64,000 nt of DNA, from positions 124,001 through 188,000 of the forward strand of contig QCPW01000001.1 of assembly GCA_003209655.1 (NCBI GenBank), written 5' to 3'. The notes under the pieces were generated by a model, which did not search any database, was not told where the DNA came from, and saw only the letters and a list, made by a program, of their open reading frames with translations. The DNA comes from Prochlorococcus sp. AG-442-M23 (lineage in GTDB: Bacteria > Cyanobacteriota > Cyanobacteriia > PCC-6307 > Cyanobiaceae). Of this stretch, positions 23,504 through 46,603 are shown in pieces; the first letter of the stretch is position 1, and each line of letters opens with the position of its first letter. The position numbers were made by a program, and so were the translations under genes.

Positions 23504-24667
23504 TTGTTTATTTTTGGAAAAAGGGTGAAAATATCAAAAAATCCAAACTCTGATTTTTTATCTTTAGATGAAGAAGAAAGATACAAAAAACATTTAACAC
23601 TTAAAGAAATAGGTCTTAAAGGACAATTAAGGCTGAGGGATTCTTCAGTGATTTGCATTGGGGCTGGAGGTCTGGGATCGTCAGTTTTGCTTTATCTCGC
23701 AGCTGCAGGCATTGGAAGAATTGGAATAGTTGATAATGATCAAGTTGAGAAATCTAATCTACAAAGGCAAATAATTCATGATACGAATAAACTTGGAAAT
23801 TTAAAAATTAATTCTGCCCAAGAAAGAATTAAAAATTTTAATCCTAATATTGAAGTAGTAACATTTAATAAAAGAATTAAGCCAGATAATATTTTAGAAA
23901 TCATTAAAGAGTTCGATATTGTATGTGATTGTTCAGATAACTTTGGCACTCGTTATTTAATTAACGATGCTTGCTTAATACTTAAAAAGACTTTAGTTTT
24001 TGGCAGTGTTCAAGGGTTTGAAGGGCAAATAAGTGTTTTTAATCTAAATAAAAACAGTCCTAATTTAAGAGACTTACTACCAGAGTCGCCCATAAAAAAT
24101 AATATTCCAAGCTGTGCAGAATTTGGGGTTGTAGGAGTCTCAACTGGTCTTATAGGAGTTTTACAAGTAAATGAAATAATAAAAATAATTTTAAAAAAAG
24201 GAGAAATTCTCGATGGAAAGATTATGATTTTTGATTTACTAAATATGAAAATAAAAACATTAAATTTGAAGGCTGATAAGTTAAATAAAAAAATTAAAAA
24301 CCTTTCTCAGTATGCAGATTTTTATCAAGATTCAATATGCCCAGATACTATTAAGGTCATGAAAATAAATGCCAAGGAATTTGATAATTTATACAAAGAA
24401 AAATTTAATAAAATACTTTTAATTGATGTAAGAGAAAATGAAGAATTTAATAAATCATCCATTAAAGGTTCTATATCTATACCCCTCAATAAACTTGATC
24501 AAAAATCTCAAGTAGAATTTCTTCAACGAGAAAGTTTGGGTAAAGAAATTTTTACATTATGTCAATTGGGAATTCGTTCAGAAAAAGCTTCAAAAATTCT
24601 AATGAAATATAAAATTTCATCAAAATCAATAGAAGGTGGAATTAATAAAATTAATCAATACTATTAA
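23504..24667 (+). CDS. moeB: ThiF/MoeB-type adenylyltransferase with C-terminal rhodanese domain
   Basis: Such proteins adenylate the C-terminus of MoaD/ThiS-like sulfur carriers and pass sulfur via the rhodanese domain. The nucleotide motif IGAGGLGSS is at about 52-60, RSNLQRQ-type KSNLQRQ at 83-89, a conserved NIPSCAEFGVVG cysteine at 204, and a rhodanese loop CQLGIRS with C353. Both CxxC zinc pairs of canonical MoeB are missing. The start is uncertain: TTG at 23504 or GTG at 23525, the latter with a better GGAAAAAGG upstream. Whether it serves molybdopterin, thiamine or tRNA thiolation cannot be told. Confidence 0.82.
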   Translation: MFIFGKRVKISKNPNSDFLSLDEEERYKKHLTLKEIGLKGQLRLRDSSVICIGAGGLGSSVLLYLAAAGIGRIGIVDNDQVEKSNLQRQIIHDTNKLGNLKINSAQERIKNFNPNIEVVTFNKRIKPDNILEIIKEFDIVCDCSDNFGTRYLINDACLILKKTLVFGSVQGFEGQISVFNLNKNSPNLRDLLPESPIKNNIPSCAEFGVVGVSTGLIGVLQVNEIIKIILKKGEILDGKIMIFDLLNMKIKTLNLKADKLNKKIKNLSQYADFYQDSICPDTIKVMKINAKEFDNLYKEKFNKILLIDVRENEEFNKSSIKGSISIPLNKLDQKSQVEFLQRESLGKEIFTLCQLGIRSEKASKILMKYKISSKSIEGGINKINQYY

Positions 24668-41838: not shown

Positions 41839-43101
41839 TCAACTTAACAATTTTAAGTTTATATAGTCCACTATTTTTTTGCTTGCTCCACCTTTACCCA
41901 TTCTTTGCATTCCAATTTTTACTTGTTTTAATCTATAGTCTTTTTGATTCAGTAGATTCTCTAAATTATTTAAAAGAGCTTTTTTATTATCACAAACTAA
42001 TACGCTTCCTCCTAATAATCTAGACTGCCTTTTTGCAAATGATTTTGTGAATTGAGGACCAGCCCCAGGGAAAGAAAGAGAGGGTATGCCAAGCCCTGTT
42101 ATTTGTTCTGTAGCAGTGCCTGCATTTGACAAGCCAACACAAGCCATATTAGCCCACTGATTAAAAGTATTTTCACCTAACAAAATATATCTATGTTTAT
42201 TTTGCCAAACTGAATTTTCACCAATCAAAAACTTTAAATTATTTGCTTGCAAATAACCATGCTTTAGTAAATGACTTTTGATTGTAAAAACATTTGCATT
42301 AAGACTTAAAGGCAAAAGAATAATCAAATCGTTCGATATTTTGAGATCTTCCAAACATTTTAAAAAAATATCAAGATTATTTAGTGCTTCAGGAAATCGA
42401 CTTCCTATTATTAAAATTAATCTCTTAAACATAATAATATTAGAAATTTTTTCATTTTTTTTATCTACAAAATCCATCATTGGATTACCCAAATATTTCG
42501 CACTTATCATTTTTTTATTTAGATTATTTGCTGTAATTTCATCTCTCATTATTATACTTTTACATCTATTAGACCTCATTAGAAAGATTTCCCAAGGATC
42601 CCATTCAGAGCCTTTAAATTTATGATACAAATCACTCAATTTCCATCCTGGTCCATTACTCCAGGTATGATCACTCTTGGGCGTACCTATAAAACAAAAT
42701 TTACATTTTGAACTCCATGCAAAAAATAAAGGCAACAAATCACCAACTGCAATAATTGTATAATTATCTTTAAACTTGCTTCTAGCTATAAAAAAGTTTT
42801 TAAAAGTATCAACTAAAAATCCTGCAAAAAAATCAAGGAAAAATCCTTTTAAGCTTTGATTACTAAAACCACCGCTTGGTAATTCCTTGAGATAACCAAT
42901 TTTGCTGAATTTCTTTGATTTTATAGAATCAAAAACTTTACCATTTCCGACCAATGGCATGACTTCAATTTTTTTAATTTTAATTTTTTTTAAGAATCTT
43001 TTTATTATTTCTAATGCAATAACATCTTCCCCATGTCCATTACATATAATTAATAGAGAATGAGACGCGTAACTGGTAGGATCATTGAGTGATTCAATCA
43101 T
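41839..43101 (-). CDS. lipid-A-disaccharide synthase-related glycosyltransferase
   Basis: The 420-aa protein begins SLLIICNGHGEDVIALEIIK, and near the C-terminus has GLSNAGTATEQITGLGIPSL followed by FPGAGPQFTKSFAKRQSRLL. This matches the LpxB-related family of cyanobacteria, a GT-B nucleotide-sugar transferase, rather than true LpxB. An open frame extends 50 codons upstream but runs through the antisense of tRNA-Cys and is rejected; ATG at 43101 is 9 bp from the tRNA 5' end. Its acceptor lipid is unknown. Confidence 0.83.
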   Translation of the reverse strand: MIESLNDPTSYASHSLLIICNGHGEDVIALEIIKRFLKKIKIKKIEVMPLVGNGKVFDSIKSKKFSKIGYLKELPSGGFSNQSLKGFFLDFFAGFLVDTFKNFFIARSKFKDNYTIIAVGDLLPLFFAWSSKCKFCFIGTPKSDHTWSNGPGWKLSDLYHKFKGSEWDPWEIFLMRSNRCKSIIMRDEITANNLNKKMISAKYLGNPMMDFVDKKNEKISNIIMFKRLILIIGSRFPEALNNLDIFLKCLEDLKISNDLIILLPLSLNANVFTIKSHLLKHGYLQANNLKFLIGENSVWQNKHRYILLGENTFNQWANMACVGLSNAGTATEQITGLGIPSLSFPGAGPQFTKSFAKRQSRLLGGSVLVCDNKKALLNNLENLLNQKDYRLKQVKIGMQRMGKGGASKKIVDYINLKLLS

Positions 43102-43110
43102 ATCTCTTTC

Positions 43111-43181
43111 GGCGGCATGGCCAAGTGGTAAGGCAGAGGATTGCAAATCCTTTATCCCCAGTTCGAATCTGGGTGCCGCCT
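43111..43181 (+). tRNA. tRNA-Cys (GCA)
   Basis: A 71-nt cloverleaf with acceptor GGCGGCA/TGCCGCC, D-arm GCCAAGTGGTAAGGC, anticodon loop TTGCAAA (GCA) and T-arm CCCAG-TTCGAAT-CTGGG; discriminator U. Its 3' 24 nt plus one downstream base are repeated at 44857-44881, marking it as an integration site. The intact gene is at the left end of the element. Confidence 0.97.
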
Positions 43182-43182
43182 T
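43158..43182 (+). repeat. left att-like direct repeat (tRNA-Cys 3' end)
   Basis: The 25 bp from CCAGTTCGAATC to GTGCCGCCTT are identical to 44857-44881. They cover the 3' part of the T-arm 5' strand, the T-loop, the acceptor 3' strand, the discriminator base and one more T. Identity stops at position 43183 (C versus T). Confidence 0.93.
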
Positions 43183-43279
43183 CTTTAAATTAGACACTAA
43201 ATTCCCTATAAACCCTTCTAAACACTTAAGTTTTGTATACTTGTTATACATTTCTTAGGGGAAATTTAGTTAAATTCTT

Positions 43280-43300
43280 GGTCGGCAAGTGGTCGGCAAG
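43280..43300 (+). repeat. GGTCGGCAAGT tandem pair, left end
   Basis: GGTCGGCAAGTGGTCGGCAA is an 11-bp unit repeated twice, 97 bp inside the left att-like repeat. The identical 20 bp recur at 44781-44800. The second unit also forms a 6-bp stem GTGGTC/GACCAC (43289-43294 with 43303-43308). A mismatched inverted copy (GTCAGCAAG) lies at 43349-43357. Confidence 0.9.
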
Positions 43301-43345
43301 TTGACCACATTTTTATTCCAAAATATTTGTAATAATTTTATTATC

Positions 43346-43825
43346 TCACTTGCTGACTACAGGAGAAAAAACTATATCTTCTTTGTTTATTGGTCCCGTT
43401 GTAAAAGTATCAAAAACTCTGTCATAATCTTCAGAAAAAATATTTAAAACTTCATATTTGTTTTTTCCTGCTGTACATGACCATTTCCCCTTCCACATAT
43501 ATTGCTGACCTAGATAACTTGCATTGTAAGAATGATAAAAACAATTTATAGCGCCAACTTTAAAACTTCTAGTTTTATTTTTACCATCAGTTCCAACAAT
43601 GGTATCTCCAATATTTAGCGATTTAAATGGTTTCTTTGGAGACCACCTTGAAGTTGTCATGAATCCATTATTCATCATAGTTTTTGGTTGATATCTTTGA
43701 TACGCTTCATCTGGAATAATTATCCGCTCTACCCACTTTCCTTCTGTATCATCTGCGCGAGCATCAAAAAAAATAGAAATAGGAATTAAACCTAATAAAC
43801 ATGATAAGAATATTAAACGTTTCAT
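43346..43825 (-). CDS. exported hypothetical protein, element cargo
   Basis: The 159-aa protein starts with a Sec signal peptide (MKRLIFLSCLLGLIPISIFF, probable cleavage after ARA at residue 24). The mature part has two cysteines (C95, C117) that could form a disulfide and aromatic-rich segments such as CFYHSYNASYLGQQYMWKGK. No domain is recognised. It overlaps the preceding gene by one base and ends the three-gene operon. Confidence 0.7.
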   Translation of the reverse strand: MKRLIFLSCLLGLIPISIFFDARADDTEGKWVERIIIPDEAYQRYQPKTMMNNGFMTTSRWSPKKPFKSLNIGDTIVGTDGKNKTRSFKVGAINCFYHSYNASYLGQQYMWKGKWSCTAGKNKYEVLNIFSEDYDRVFDTFTTGPINKEDIVFSPVVSK

Positions 43826-44193
43826 TATCTATTAATTTCTCCGAATCTATAACTATCTTGATATTTTAATTTTGTTGTTTTTTTACAAATATCAACATCT
43901 ATCCATTCCATAGTGACTGTATGAGAAGACATATCCTCTTTTGCTCCGACTGAATATTTACACTCTCCCTTTTTGTAAACCCAATACCAAGGATACTTAT
44001 AATGTTTATTTTCCTTGATTCTCTCTGAAAGAGTCTCCCAATAAGTGTCGTTAACTAATTTAATTGCTGCTCTTTCTCCCATAGAACATTCACCTTGCGA
44101 TTCTGGGCAGGTATATTTGTGCCTTTGATATTGTTCCGCACTTAGAGGGGAAAATAAAGAACAAAATAAACTCAAAAATAATATTTTTTTCAT
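43825..44193 (-). CDS. exported cysteine-containing hypothetical protein, element cargo
   Basis: The 122-aa protein has a signal peptide ending LSA (residue 19). The mature domain has four cysteines (C29, C36, C78, C103), consistent with two disulfides, and is aromatic-rich with charged patches, for example KHYKYPWYWVYKKGECKYSV. No known family is recognised. It overlaps the upstream membrane-protein gene by 4 bp and the downstream exported-protein gene by 1 bp. Confidence 0.7.
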   Translation of the reverse strand: MKKILFLSLFCSLFSPLSAEQYQRHKYTCPESQGECSMGERAAIKLVNDTYWETLSERIKENKHYKYPWYWVYKKGECKYSVGAKEDMSSHTVTMEWIDVDICKKTTKLKYQDSYRFGEINR

Positions 44194-44639
44194 TCCTTGG
44201 GTAGGTTACCTGTTTTGCTTAGTTTCAAAACATCATTTTTTTCATCTTTAATTAGATAAATCAAAACTCCAATAGGAGTAAAAGCATCAATTATTATTTT
44301 TATAGGTGTTGAATATGGAGGATTTGGCAAAGCACTCATAAAGACGAATGCATTAAAACCAAGAAGAACTGACCATGTGAGTATGAAGTATTTGGATTTT
44401 AAAAACTTAGGTTTTACATAGATAGAAGCAAGGAAACAAACAATATAAAATATCAATGTTTGCCAGAGATGAGTTCCCCAACTATCCATCTTTAAACCAA
44501 ACATTGATTCTTGTATCCTCGCTAAAAAAAACAAGGGAAATTTGACTATCGTTCCTGCCAAAAAACCTGCAGGAATAAAAACTATTAATCTTAAAATTTC
44601 TAGAAATTGATTTCGAATTTGTTTATAAGTCTCTTTCAA
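44190..44639 (-). CDS. multi-pass membrane hypothetical protein, element cargo
   Basis: The 149-aa protein has about four hydrophobic segments (roughly 12-40, 57-75, 84-103 and 112-130) and a charged C-terminus. No family is recognised. It is the first gene of the cargo operon, overlapping the next by 4 bp. Its promoter must lie in the 44640-44856 stretch that also holds the right-end motif copies. Confidence 0.65.
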   Translation of the reverse strand: MKETYKQIRNQFLEILRLIVFIPAGFLAGTIVKFPLFFLARIQESMFGLKMDSWGTHLWQTLIFYIVCFLASIYVKPKFLKSKYFILTWSVLLGFNAFVFMSALPNPPYSTPIKIIIDAFTPIGVLIYLIKDEKNDVLKLSKTGNLPKE

Positions 44640-44710
44640 AATTTCAATTATTTATTTAATTTTAAGCGTCTTGTCAACAGCAAAATTTAACACCAACATT
44701 TCCCCCAGAA

Positions 44711-44719
44711 CTTGCCGAC
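44711..44719 (-). repeat. inverted GTCGGCAAG copy, right end
   Basis: CTTGCCGAC here is the reverse complement of GTCGGCAAG, 62 bp from the direct pair at 44781-44800. With the left-end set it gives a similar arrangement at both ends: a direct pair plus an inverted copy (one mismatch on the left). Confidence 0.75.
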
Positions 44720-44780
44720 TAAGAAGCAAAATTAAGTATTAGTTAGTGGGTTAATTTTCTAAGTAGATATTAATAACTCT

Positions 44781-44800
44781 GGTCGGCAAGTGGTCGGCAA
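44781..44800 (+). repeat. GGTCGGCAAGT tandem pair, right end
   Basis: Twenty bases identical to 43280-43299, lying 56 bp before the right att-like repeat. They could be recombinase arm-type sites or binding sites for an element-encoded or host DNA-bending protein. The sequence is far more GC-rich than its surroundings. Confidence 0.9.
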
Positions 44801-44856
44801 CTTAATAATTTACCCCCAAAAACCCCCTGTATATGGTGCTTTTGCCATGTATATGT

Positions 44857-44881
44857 CCAGTTCGAATCTGGGTGCCGCCTT
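44857..44881 (+). repeat. right att-like direct repeat (partial tRNA-Cys)
   Basis: An exact 25-bp copy of the tRNA-Cys 3' end without the rest of the tRNA. The upstream bases (atatgt) do not continue the tRNA sequence. This is a tRNA fragment and not a functional gene. Confidence 0.93.
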
Positions 44882-45248
44882 TTTAAAATAAGTGAAAATA
44901 TAGGCTGTAAAGGATTCCAGAAACTGAATTTTATGGTAGCGATTTTTGTATTTCAAGTAGTTCAGATTAGGCTTTAAGTTAGGGTTAAGTTACGTGAAAA
45001 TTTATCAGGTTTTTTTGAACCTATTTTTATTATCTCATCAACTGCAACTTGAGAAAGTTTTATAATCCTCACAAAATGACGCTTGCAGTTATCAGCAGAA
45101 TAAAAATATAGTTTCTTGGATAATCGTTTAAAAAAAAGAATTGAAAAATTCAATCAATCAAAAAAGATCTATTTTTAGTATTTTTGCTCATGGATAAAGA
45201 TAAATTCTCTCGATAAATTGGAATAAATTTATAAATTTGGGGAAATTT
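44882..45248. other. gene-poor stretch with an ORF fragment on the minus strand
   Basis: No confident gene is seen in these 367 bp. On the minus strand a frame running from before 45140 to the stop at 44974-44976 reads RLSKKLYFYSADNCKRHF and, further on, LSQVAVDEIIKIGSKKPDKF. It looks protein-like but has no ATG; GTG at 45072 would give 33 residues. It may be the remains of a gene broken when an element inserted or was lost, or a small gene with an unusual start. Confidence 0.35.
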
Positions 45249-45383
45249 ATGAGTGGAGATTACGAAACTCTTGAGATTAATCAACCAAAGATTTCATATT
45301 ATCAGAAGAAAGTAAAAAATAATGAAAAATGGTTAGAAGAAATGATCAATCAAATTGAAGATATGAAAAACAAAATAAAGTAA
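45249..45383 (+). CDS. small hypothetical protein, 44 aa
   Basis: ATG at 45249 follows GGGGAAATTT, a reasonable Shine-Dalgarno. The product starts MSGDYETLEINQPKISYYQK and ends in a lysine-rich predicted helix (EEMINQIEDMKNKIK). No domain is recognised. It resembles the short charged proteins common in Prochlorococcus accessory regions. Confidence 0.5.
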   Translation: MSGDYETLEINQPKISYYQKKVKNNEKWLEEMINQIEDMKNKIK

Positions 45384-45405
45384 ATTGTTTACTCTTTAGA
45401 GGATT

Positions 45406-45486
45406 ATGGAGAGCGCTGAACACAAAGTCGATGAAGTGCTTTTGATTCCGTTATTCTTGATAAACCTACATATTAGAGAAATTTAG
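45406..45486 (+). CDS. possible very small ORF, 26 aa
   Basis: ATG at 45406 is preceded by AGAGGATT. The product starts MESAEHKVDEVLLIPLFLIN and ends LHIREI, with a hydrophobic centre. It could be a peptide or chance; support is only the Shine-Dalgarno and its position between two other small ORFs. Confidence 0.25.
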   Translation: MESAEHKVDEVLLIPLFLINLHIREI

Positions 45487-45547
45487 TGATGTAAAACATA
45501 AAGGTCTTTTACTCAGGTAAATATACTATATGAATTTTTGGTTAATT

Positions 45548-45553
45548 AGGAGG
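45548..45553 (+). promoter_or_regulatory. strong Shine-Dalgarno deciding an ATA start
   Basis: AGGAGG lies 5 bp before ATA at 45559. It is among the strongest ribosome-binding sites in the window, yet the codon at the right distance is ATA, not ATG. Confidence 0.7.
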
Positions 45554-45558
45554 ATAAT

Positions 45559-45756
45559 ATAAGCATAGATCTAGGAGATCTTAAGAAAATATTCAATATC
45601 TTTCCAAAATACTTAACAGCATTTAACTATCCTGGTTTAAATCTGAATGAAACCCCAACAGAAATTGAGCAATTCCATCTAGAGTTTGAAAACTTCTGGA
45701 ATAAAGACTGTAAGGATAATCCAGCTAATAAAAATTATTTAATTTATTGTGATTAA
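45559..45756 (+). CDS. small hypothetical protein, 65 aa, with ATA start
   Basis: An open frame of 65 codons starts with ATA AGC ATA GAT (S-I-D after the initiator), directly behind AGGAGG. It reads LGDLKKIFNIFPKYLTAFNY early on and FHLEFENFWNKDCKDNPANK later. The frame contains no ATG, GTG or TTG at all, so it must start at ATA or be a pseudogene that lost its ATG by one base change. The composition is ordinary for a soluble protein. No domain is recognised. Confidence 0.5.
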   Translation: MSIDLGDLKKIFNIFPKYLTAFNYPGLNLNETPTEIEQFHLEFENFWNKDCKDNPANKNYLIYCD

Positions 45757-45810
45757 ACCATATTTTTTCAGAGAGGATTATCTATTATTCATTTTTAAAA
45801 ATTAATTTTT

Positions 45811-45972
45811 TTAATAGTCGCTATCAGCAACACATATACCCAAACAACGTATACCATTAGAAGCAGTCCTTTTACAGTGATTACATAAAATCTTTTCTTT
45901 ATCTAAAGAAACTCTAGATTCTTTATTAGTTTTGTGACTTATCAAATTAAGGTTATGATCATAAGGTTTCAT
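45811..45972 (-). CDS. small putative zinc-ribbon protein, 53 aa
   Basis: From ATG at 45972 the product is 53 aa and has C30-x2-C33 and C43-x3-C47 (CNHCK and CLGIC), plausible zinc or disulfide pairs. A longer frame adds 11 residues within the upstream gene. It overlaps the end of the 214-aa hypothetical gene by 14 bp, so the two are probably co-transcribed. Function unknown. Confidence 0.55.
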   Translation of the reverse strand: MKPYDHNLNLISHKTNKESRVSLDKEKILCNHCKRTASNGIRCLGICVADSDY

Positions 45973-46603
45973 TATTATTGTTATTGTCTGAATCGATACT
46001 AACAACTAGAGAAGGATTAGCGTTAGAAGAAGGTATATCCATAATCTTTACAGTTTCTTTGGGTTCATCAATAACTGTATTTTCTTTAGGATTCTCATCT
46101 ACAGCACAAGCCTCAAGAGCTTCTCTTAAAAGCGAATCAAAAGTTGCCCCAGGCAATCTATGTCTTGCAACCTCAAGAAAAGTTCTTGGTAATGATTCAG
46201 AGGCGGCATTTCTTAACGCAGGATTATTCTTTCGATGATCTTGTTCTTCTTCTATTGATTTGATAAACCTCAAAGTTACATCTCTTTTAGTAGATGCTTT
46301 TATCAAAGTATCATTCTCAGGATTTCTAGAATTTGGTTCATTCTCAAGATCACTTAGCCTTTTATCTAGACTATTTAAAACTTCATTAGCTTCTTTGCTT
46401 ATATGTGATAATTGTCCATCAGATAAATTTGGTAAATCAGCAACAAAAACCTTTCCATGATCTCTTAAACTTAAAAAAGTTGGGCGAGGACCTTGATTTT
46501 GGCGACCATTAAAATCTGCATTATTACCTAATATTCTTTTAGGAGGAGTAGGTCCTGCTGAACTACGTCTACGTGTAATTCTTTGATTATTTTCAAAGGG
46601 CAT
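45959..46603 (-). CDS. hypothetical protein, polar/disordered, 214 aa
   Basis: The 214-aa protein has a basic proline- and glycine-rich N-terminus (RRRSSAGPTPPKRILGNN) and a central helical region with charged residues (LSHISKEANEVLNSLDKRLS). A conserved-looking block LPRTFLEVARHRLPGATFDS follows, then an asparagine-rich tail. No domain or signal peptide is recognised. It may be a picocyanobacterial-specific protein; its role is unknown. Confidence 0.6.
   Translation of the reverse strand: MPFENNQRITRRRSSAGPTPPKRILGNNADFNGRQNQGPRPTFLSLRDHGKVFVADLPNLSDGQLSHISKEANEVLNSLDKRLSDLENEPNSRNPENDTLIKASTKRDVTLRFIKSIEEEQDHRKNNPALRNAASESLPRTFLEVARHRLPGATFDSLLREALEACAVDENPKENTVIDEPKETVKIMDIPSSNANPSLVVSIDSDNNNNNETL

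Follow-up and report, generated by a model that had tools for sequence, protein, structure and literature searches.

Tycheposons of Prochlorococcus were reportedly described by Hackl et al. 2023 and are dispersed in vesicles or phage particles. In this study we analyzed a stretch of 64,000 nucleotides from Prochlorococcus sp. AG-442-M23 (the window), in which an element of 1,699 base pairs (bp) with three genes lies between two exact copies of the 3' end of a tRNA-Cys(GCA) gene. Since the attachment site (att) is duplicated, the arms at both ends match and larger relatives carry a probable recombinase, we consider it quite likely that this integrative element is non-autonomous and carries cargo only, that its ends are arm-like and that it is mobilized in trans by an integrase that shares its motif. 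An earlier note on the locus had suggested a minimal cargo-only tycheposon. This is a fair working label as far as the insertion into a tRNA gene with a duplicated 3' end is concerned, and the genus, the cargo genes and the probable tyrosine recombinase of larger relatives at tRNA-Cys agree with it as well. In contrast, neither a tyrosine recombinase (among the three genes or by tblastn) nor another hallmark gene was found in the element itself, and with 1.7 kb it stays below the 4-200 kb quoted for tycheposons (PMC10872708, cited, like the other papers here, from excerpts).

Similar features are known from cis-mobilizable elements (CIMEs). The element has attL and attR flanks, and family searches with its three genes revealed neither an integrase nor transfer genes. 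CIMEs move together with an adjacent related element (accretion); the neighbour of our element in the window appears to be an older integrase-less remnant, and stacks occur in three other genomes (G062, G079, G119). For the att-flanked ssrA islands of Dehalococcoides it was suggested that 15 islands without an integration module are possible CIMEs (PMC3146451). As in our survey, module-less islands are found there beside module-bearing ones and in tandem at one RNA gene. However, a serine recombinase is used there, whereas here the arm pairs are matched and the recombinase is probably of the tyrosine type, and the window holds no integrase-bearing neighbour. In the additive flexible islands of Methylophilaceae, 20-bp 3' ends of tRNA-Lys are repeated (PMC10872708). 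Our locus resembles these islands in that tRNA ends recur next to variable DNA whose genes are mostly unknown; host and tRNA differ, and the excerpts do not mention arm-type motifs. Because integrase-less islands and repeated tRNA ends are thus on record, the kind of element is itself known. None of the titles and abstract openings listed in our literature searches speaks of matched arm motifs or of cargo-only elements at tRNA-Cys, Hackl et al. 2023 standing outside this comparison. What we regard as new are the element-specific paired arms, the coexistence of forms with a recombinase and cargo-only forms at a single site, and the spread of cargo across several insertion addresses.

The tRNA-Cys repeat and the arm motif

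The 25-mer CCAGTTCGAATCTGGGTGCCGCCTT is present twice with 25 of 25 positions identical and an offset of 1,699 bp (G000:C1:167158 and 168857 in genome coordinates; Table 1). Searching the whole 1.63-Mb genome at up to two mismatches yielded these two matches only, and a reversed-pattern control yielded none. The exact repetition claimed in the earlier note was thereby borne out, the scatter over many places that the note had named as counter-evidence is absent from this genome, and a chance repeat was rejected in view of full identity and uniqueness in the genome. The note had equated the 25 bp with the tRNA 3' end; in fact the last 24 nucleotides of tRNA-Cys are followed by one further nucleotide beyond the tRNA. 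ARAGORN and the sequence agree with it that the first copy belongs to the intact tRNA and that the second is a fragment, which comprises the T-arm half and the acceptor strand. None of the other three tRNAs in the window has a second copy of its last 20 bases within the window at up to three mismatches.

The three genes between the repeats overlap by one to four bases and are all read toward tRNA-Cys. Their products gave nothing above the curated cut-offs in Pfam, PHROG and NCBIfam, and tblastn with two recombinases of the P0001 family (see below) against the element interval gave no match. Accordingly, the interval contains no integrase recognizable by Pfam, PHROG or family tblastn, as the earlier note had stated.

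A second symmetric feature, which the note had not noticed, was revealed by repeat analysis. Inside each end lies a direct-repeat pair of an 11-bp motif, starting at +117 on the left and -81 on the right relative to the core start (TTCGAATCTGGGTGCCGCC). The pattern TGGTCGGCAAGT at up to two mismatches has nine matches in the window, six of them inside the element, where 1.3 are expected for the whole window. The form of the motif in this element is TCGGCAAG. Both ends are intact, with zero or one mismatch per 12-bp arm unit and identical cores. In an alignment of 10 elements, the left arm is conserved through the tandem pair in all and up to the inverted copy in most, after which the sequences diverge; in G109 the right-arm sequence begins after the tandem pair.

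Integrases of the lambda and Tn916 type have arm-type sites, which are short direct repeats on either arm, spaced at a set distance from the core. Elements of the window type likewise carry direct repeats on both arms at a fixed distance from the core. Such a layout, with the core, the paired repeats of each arm and a motif form that agrees within the element, is the one that would be required by an integrase that has an arm-binding domain. Unlike in those systems, the arm sequence is element-specific here while the core is constant, and most copies lack an integrase. We propose that the ends would supply the sites of a tyrosine recombinase, namely the tRNA-Cys 3'-end core together with one 11-bp pair and one single inverted copy per side. 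The pairs and inverted copies would then be arm-type sites bound by the integrase and perhaps by an excisionase, and the middle would hold only the three overlapping genes, whose products are probably secreted or membrane proteins. The integrase would come in trans from an autonomous element that shares the arm motif; it would recombine the two cores and release a circle, and reinsertion at tRNA-Cys would restore the tRNA.

Table 1. Coordinates of the element, its surroundings and related loci (window positions, unless a locus is named).
Feature	Position	Strand	Basis or remark
Intact tRNA-Cys(GCA), with the left attachment site in its 3' half	43111..43181	+	ARAGORN
Core/att, left copy of the 25-bp direct repeat	43158..43182	+	
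Left arm	43183..43360	+	Alignment of 10 elements including the window's
Left tandem pair of the 11-bp motif, TGGTCGGCAAGTGGTCGGCAAGT	43279..43301	+	Proposed integrase arm-type site
Cargo gene 1, 159 amino acids	43346..43825	-	Hydrophobic, signal-peptide-like N terminus (simple hydropathy rule)
Single inverted motif copy, left	43348..43359	-	2 mismatches
Cargo gene 2, 122 amino acids	43825..44193	-	Secreted-looking by inspection; not flagged by the hydropathy rule
Cargo gene 3, 149 amino acids	44190..44639	-	Hydrophobic, membrane-like; N terminus flagged by the hydropathy rule
Single inverted motif copy, right arm	44710..44721	-	1 mismatch
Right tandem pair of the motif, TGGTCGGCAAGTGGTCGGCAACT	44780..44802	+	One change relative to the left pair
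Core/att, right copy of the 25-bp repeat (tRNA-Cys fragment)	44857..44881	+	
Older material right of the element	44882..45958	.	Alignments with relatives
Conserved 214-amino-acid gene, right-hand survey anchor outside the element	45959..46603	-	
Probable tyrosine-recombinase family unseen by the profile libraries scanned	L081:6224-7612, L138:14046-15425, L139:10318-11703, L143:8330-9775		
guaA-associated elements with 11-bp tandem pairs near their ends	L294, L296, L297, L298, L300, L303, L304, L305		

tRNA-Cys loci across the genus

The search covered 266 genomes of the genus, among them that of the window, and 205 of them contain the 25-mer at up to two mismatches. For the survey we used the genomes among the matches listed together with G006, G031, G193, G260, G264, G275 and G280, which had a motif or integrase hit, giving 138. 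G260 and G280, in which no tRNA-Cys was recognizable, and six genomes without the anchor gene on the stretch were dropped, which left 130 loci. In 70 of them core and anchor lie within 460 bp, and we read these short sites as empty sites; the other 60 are longer, up to 10.8 kb (70 and 55 without five loci fetched for a hit). A second core at up to three mismatches is present in 26 of the 60 long sites and in none of the 70 short ones. Moreover, a left tandem pair (score of at least 15.5) at 85-150 bp past the core start occurs in 40 long and two short sites, and none of 2,252 random 65-bp windows of the same loci reached that score (highest 14.0). One or the other feature is found in 44 of the 60 long sites, an integrase in three of the 60 (in one of 55 when the five loci fetched for a hit are excluded). 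A pattern search across the genus detected the pair in 24 of 266 genomes, 21 times at tRNA-Cys and twice at tRNA-Asn (G157, G260), with G280 unplaced; the reversed control gave none.

Two further observations concern the content of such loci. The tRNA-anchor intervals of 6.8 kb in L255 (G187) and 10.8 kb in L214 (G142) contain genes that look by inspection like surface-sugar-synthesis genes; both have a left arm (that of G142 just below the threshold), and neither a second core nor a recombinase was found in them. Besides, a family of 385- to 577-amino-acid proteins, mostly with a secretion-like N terminus, is encoded in eight tRNA-Cys loci (L171, L251, L077, L185, L192, L198, L169, L166), mostly with arms of the ACAGCAAG type.

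The motif was read in several forms, TCGGCAAG, TAGGAAAG, GCGGTAAG, ATGGTAAG, ACAGCAAG and TAGGTGAG. From 30 core-to-core intervals in 28 genomes, 12 with an arm score below 15.5 or a length of at most 250 bp were excluded, and in the 18 used the left and right motif of an element differ on average at 2.44 of 23 positions, compared with 7.07 when the right arms are shuffled. None of 20,000 shuffles reached 2.44, the lowest shuffled mean being 4.22. The most economical reading is that each form would be the arm site of one recombinase lineage, so that any element in the same cell with the gene could move a cassette without it. Arms scoring at least 15.5 keep a narrow distance from the core, at +106 to +117 on the left and -80 to -83 on the right. 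The 11-bp pairs could also be replication iterons or operator boxes that lie at both ends by coincidence, and iterons are typically tandem repeats of such size too. We hold this to be very unlikely, given the narrow distances, the matching motif sequence at both ends and the recurrence of core and tandem pair in the same layout at tRNA-Asn, tRNA-Phe and guaA. Pairs are also found in elements of 190-197 bp, which leave no room for a Rep gene.

These small elements are a 197-bp element in G109 (L078) and the 190-bp second element of G062 (L147), each with a single tandem pair and no cargo and with another motif form in the latter than in the former. To judge from their sequence they look like the result of a deletion between left and right pairs. 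Such recombination between left and right repeats would also fit a replacement island, in which cargo is exchanged by homologous recombination between the conserved arms or the flanking genes and an integrase is no longer needed. We nevertheless rate this explanation as quite unlikely, because different motif forms occur at one and the same core, with arms that appear dissimilar in a single alignment mixing the forms, and because empty sites exist alongside element stacks, which have different motif forms in G062 and G079 and the same form in G119.

The block to the right of the element aligns end to end (72%, about 1.1 kb) with the DNA that directly follows the intact tRNA-Cys in G103 and G181, and these two genomes show the pre-insertion junction. 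Its first 180 bp or so resemble the G133 element's left arm, at 80% over 182 bp, and 45365-45770 resembles cargo DNA of a guaA array, at 74% over 419 bp. The latter segment apparently is a decayed cargo gene of about 60 amino acids, which is open in six tRNA-Cys loci and one guaA locus. As the block begins like a left arm and contains the decayed gene, the element seems to have inserted between tRNA-Cys and an older relic. In G109 the left and right arms are 98.3% and 95.2% identical to those of the window, compared with 84.4% and 76.1% for the flanking genes. Since these arms are more alike than the flanks, the ends have moved horizontally, and this weighs against a replacement island. In G115 the flanks are 89-90% identical and the left arm 85%. 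The identities of both genomes argue against vertical descent of the whole locus. Cargo varies among elements of the window's motif form, and retention of the three genes in all relatives, which the earlier note had named as evidence against insertion, was not found: genes 1 and 3 occur in one other genome each of the 266, and not at tRNA-Cys.

Relatives with a probable recombinase and the possible source of an integrase

Elements with the same core and the same pair positions as in the window were found in G133 (Prochlorococcus sp. AG-436-O11; 7.1 kb), G193 and G264 (9.5 kb each). At the right end of all three lies a gene for a protein of 459-462 amino acids, and in G133 there are further genes for a serine resolvase and for a GIY-YIG protein. 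In hhalign the profile of this family aligned over 356 columns (E 6.6e-5, probability 64%) with six Prochlorococcus integrases recognized by PF00589, and the residues R (in LR), RH and Y are in register. On account of this alignment and these residues we read the protein as a divergent tyrosine recombinase, which it probably is. Together with the att duplication, the pre-insertion junction and the arm-like ends, these elements at the same site support the footprint of integration into a tRNA gene that the earlier note had recognized. This probable recombinase family, here called P0001, occurs in nine of the 266 genomes and in one of 87 near-complete ones. Some members (G021, G176, G178) are located near tRNA-Phe, and there, too, 11-bp tandem pairs lie a short way from the tRNA. 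At L141:8080-9330, a small tandem-arm cassette has as its neighbours an element with a recombinase and fragments that resemble a tRNA, by inspection tRNA-Phe.

In the genome of the window PF00589 has two matches, at C1:115623, in an element at tRNA-Ser(GCT), and at C3:123743. The first was rejected as helper as no pair of the tRNA-Cys kind was found around it. In the search for a helper beyond the genus, the motif matched in four of 76 genomes of the family (the window's own, G340, G337 and G292), and the reversed control matched in two. G340, from another genus of the family, has a tRNA-Cys with a perfect tandem pair TGGTCGGTAAGTGGTCGGTAA, close to the window's form, 114 bp past the core start (L315, G340:C7, 9822-10009). 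No relative of nine integrase queries was found in the 20 kb searched there.

A Prochlorococcus siphovirus with tRNA-linked islands has been reported (PMC2784084). For our element a phage origin was rejected, as the exact 21-nucleotide core is absent from IMG/VR. The degenerate arm pattern matched 15 stretches there, taken as chance among 2.9 million contigs, and recombinase peptide patterns matched 10 stretches, none of which is a relative. The features of phage satellites such as phage-inducible chromosomal islands (PICI) or minimalist islands (PICMI) were likewise not found: neither an integrase of its own nor genes for packaging or capsid interference were recognized in the element, whose three genes have no PHROGs match.

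Several points weigh against mobilization in trans by such an integrase. The identity of the recombinase is a profile match of moderate probability; its single-sequence structure model was unusable (mean predicted local distance difference test, pLDDT, of 36), three scanned copies had no Pfam match, none was obtained in NCBIfam (P0001, L138) or PHROGs (P0001, L143), and a profile search of the PDB with the recombinase alignment returned nothing up to E 5. An integrase of the P0001 family was not found in the genome of the window, and in none of the nine genomes with a P0001-family member does the TCGGCAAG form stand beside it. Neither a circle nor an excision junction is visible. The shuffle test leaves relatedness by common descent of the elements out of account, and in 16 of the 60 long sites a second core is missing and so is a left arm of sufficient score; these may be decayed or something else. 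Besides, the right arm in G119, G006 and G075 (70-79%) is no closer than the flanks, which lowers our confidence very slightly.

The earlier note had left it undecided whether the element is mobilized in trans or frozen. As a frozen remnant it would descend from an autonomous element in which, once inserted, an internal deletion removed the integrase, so that it has been immobile since. A helper found neither in this genome nor for this motif form would fit, and so would the degenerate ends and leftovers that are frequent at tRNA-Cys, one of them directly beside the element. We consider this unlikely, because other species have similar ends around different cargo, the arms of G109 exceed its flanks in identity, no trace of a recombinase is left in the interval, and only three long sites have an integrase where 44 have a second core or a left arm. 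Moreover, as the ends are nearly perfect, they favour an element that may still be a substrate. Mobilization in trans would imply that a recombinase of the window's motif form exists and that excision continues.

Shared cargo and a proposed wider cassette system

The relatives of the three genes are found at other insertion sites. Gene 1 has one relative outside this genome, in G021 (42%), within a tRNA-Asn element, and gene 3 has one in G069 (84%), next to gene 2 at tRNA-Asn. Gene 2 is more widespread, with matches below 1e-20 in 22 of the 266 genomes (this one and 21 others) and weaker, mostly partial matches up to E 0.001 alone in 56 further genomes. The gene-2 loci that we read number 18 and come from 17 of these 21 genomes, G120, G146, G249 and G254 being left out. 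Three lie at tRNA-Asn, five at tRNA-Ser(CGA), one at tRNA-Pro, eight at the 3' end of guaA, recognized by the GTIEW end, and one on a short contig with a guaA-like core; ARAGORN found tRNA-Cys in none of the 18. In G069, genes 3 and 2 are adjacent after tRNA-Asn, and a copy of the tRNA end with four mismatches follows 2.2 kb further. In G021, genes 2 and 1 and an integrase lie between tRNA-Asn and such a copy of the tRNA end at a distance of 10.3 kb, and tandem pairs are located at +120 and +10157. By the location of these homologs, cargo is shared between addresses, and all three genes of the window have relatives at tRNA-Asn.

Similar elements were observed at the eight guaA loci, several of which are stacks with three or more cores. 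Past the cores there are often 11-bp pairs, located at about +52 and +114, and a pair at -95 often closes the element. The motif form agrees where both ends were found; L297 has one pair only. Among five cargo proteins scanned were restriction-modification proteins of types III and IIG as well as a Mokosh-like one. Our integrase queries found no integrase in the eight loci.

Tentatively, and with a little less than even confidence, we propose a distributed cassette system. Each cassette would combine an address, the core at tRNA-Cys, tRNA-Asn, tRNA-Phe or guaA, with a key, the element-specific 11-bp tandem arm motif. Rare divergent tyrosine recombinases would serve mostly recombinase-less cassettes that stack and exchange cargo including defence genes, much like an integron whose integrase resides elsewhere in the population. 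Integron cassettes and clusters of attC sites lacking integron-integrases (CALINs) are also small, integrase-less and in part arranged in tandem beside a common insertion point. In contrast to them, the ends here consist of a tRNA core and direct repeats; neither IntI nor attC, for which no search was made, was noticed.

Two annotations of the window lie apart from this system. An open reading frame of 470 amino acids on the minus strand (41839-43251) crosses tRNA-Cys only through the choice of the earliest possible start, and judged by inspection it probably begins on the near side of tRNA-Cys. An Rfam match to SNORD36 at 24494-24565 (score 30.3 against a gathering threshold of 30, E 0.85) is most likely due to chance.

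Prochlorococcus combines great abundance and a small genome with a huge flexible gene pool, and the movement of this pool is an open question. As the probable recombinase has no match in Pfam, PHROG or NCBIfam (P0001), routine annotation would probably miss the helper as well. The matched arm motif offers a sequence signature by which integrase-less cassettes can be found directly and pairs of helper and cassette predicted.

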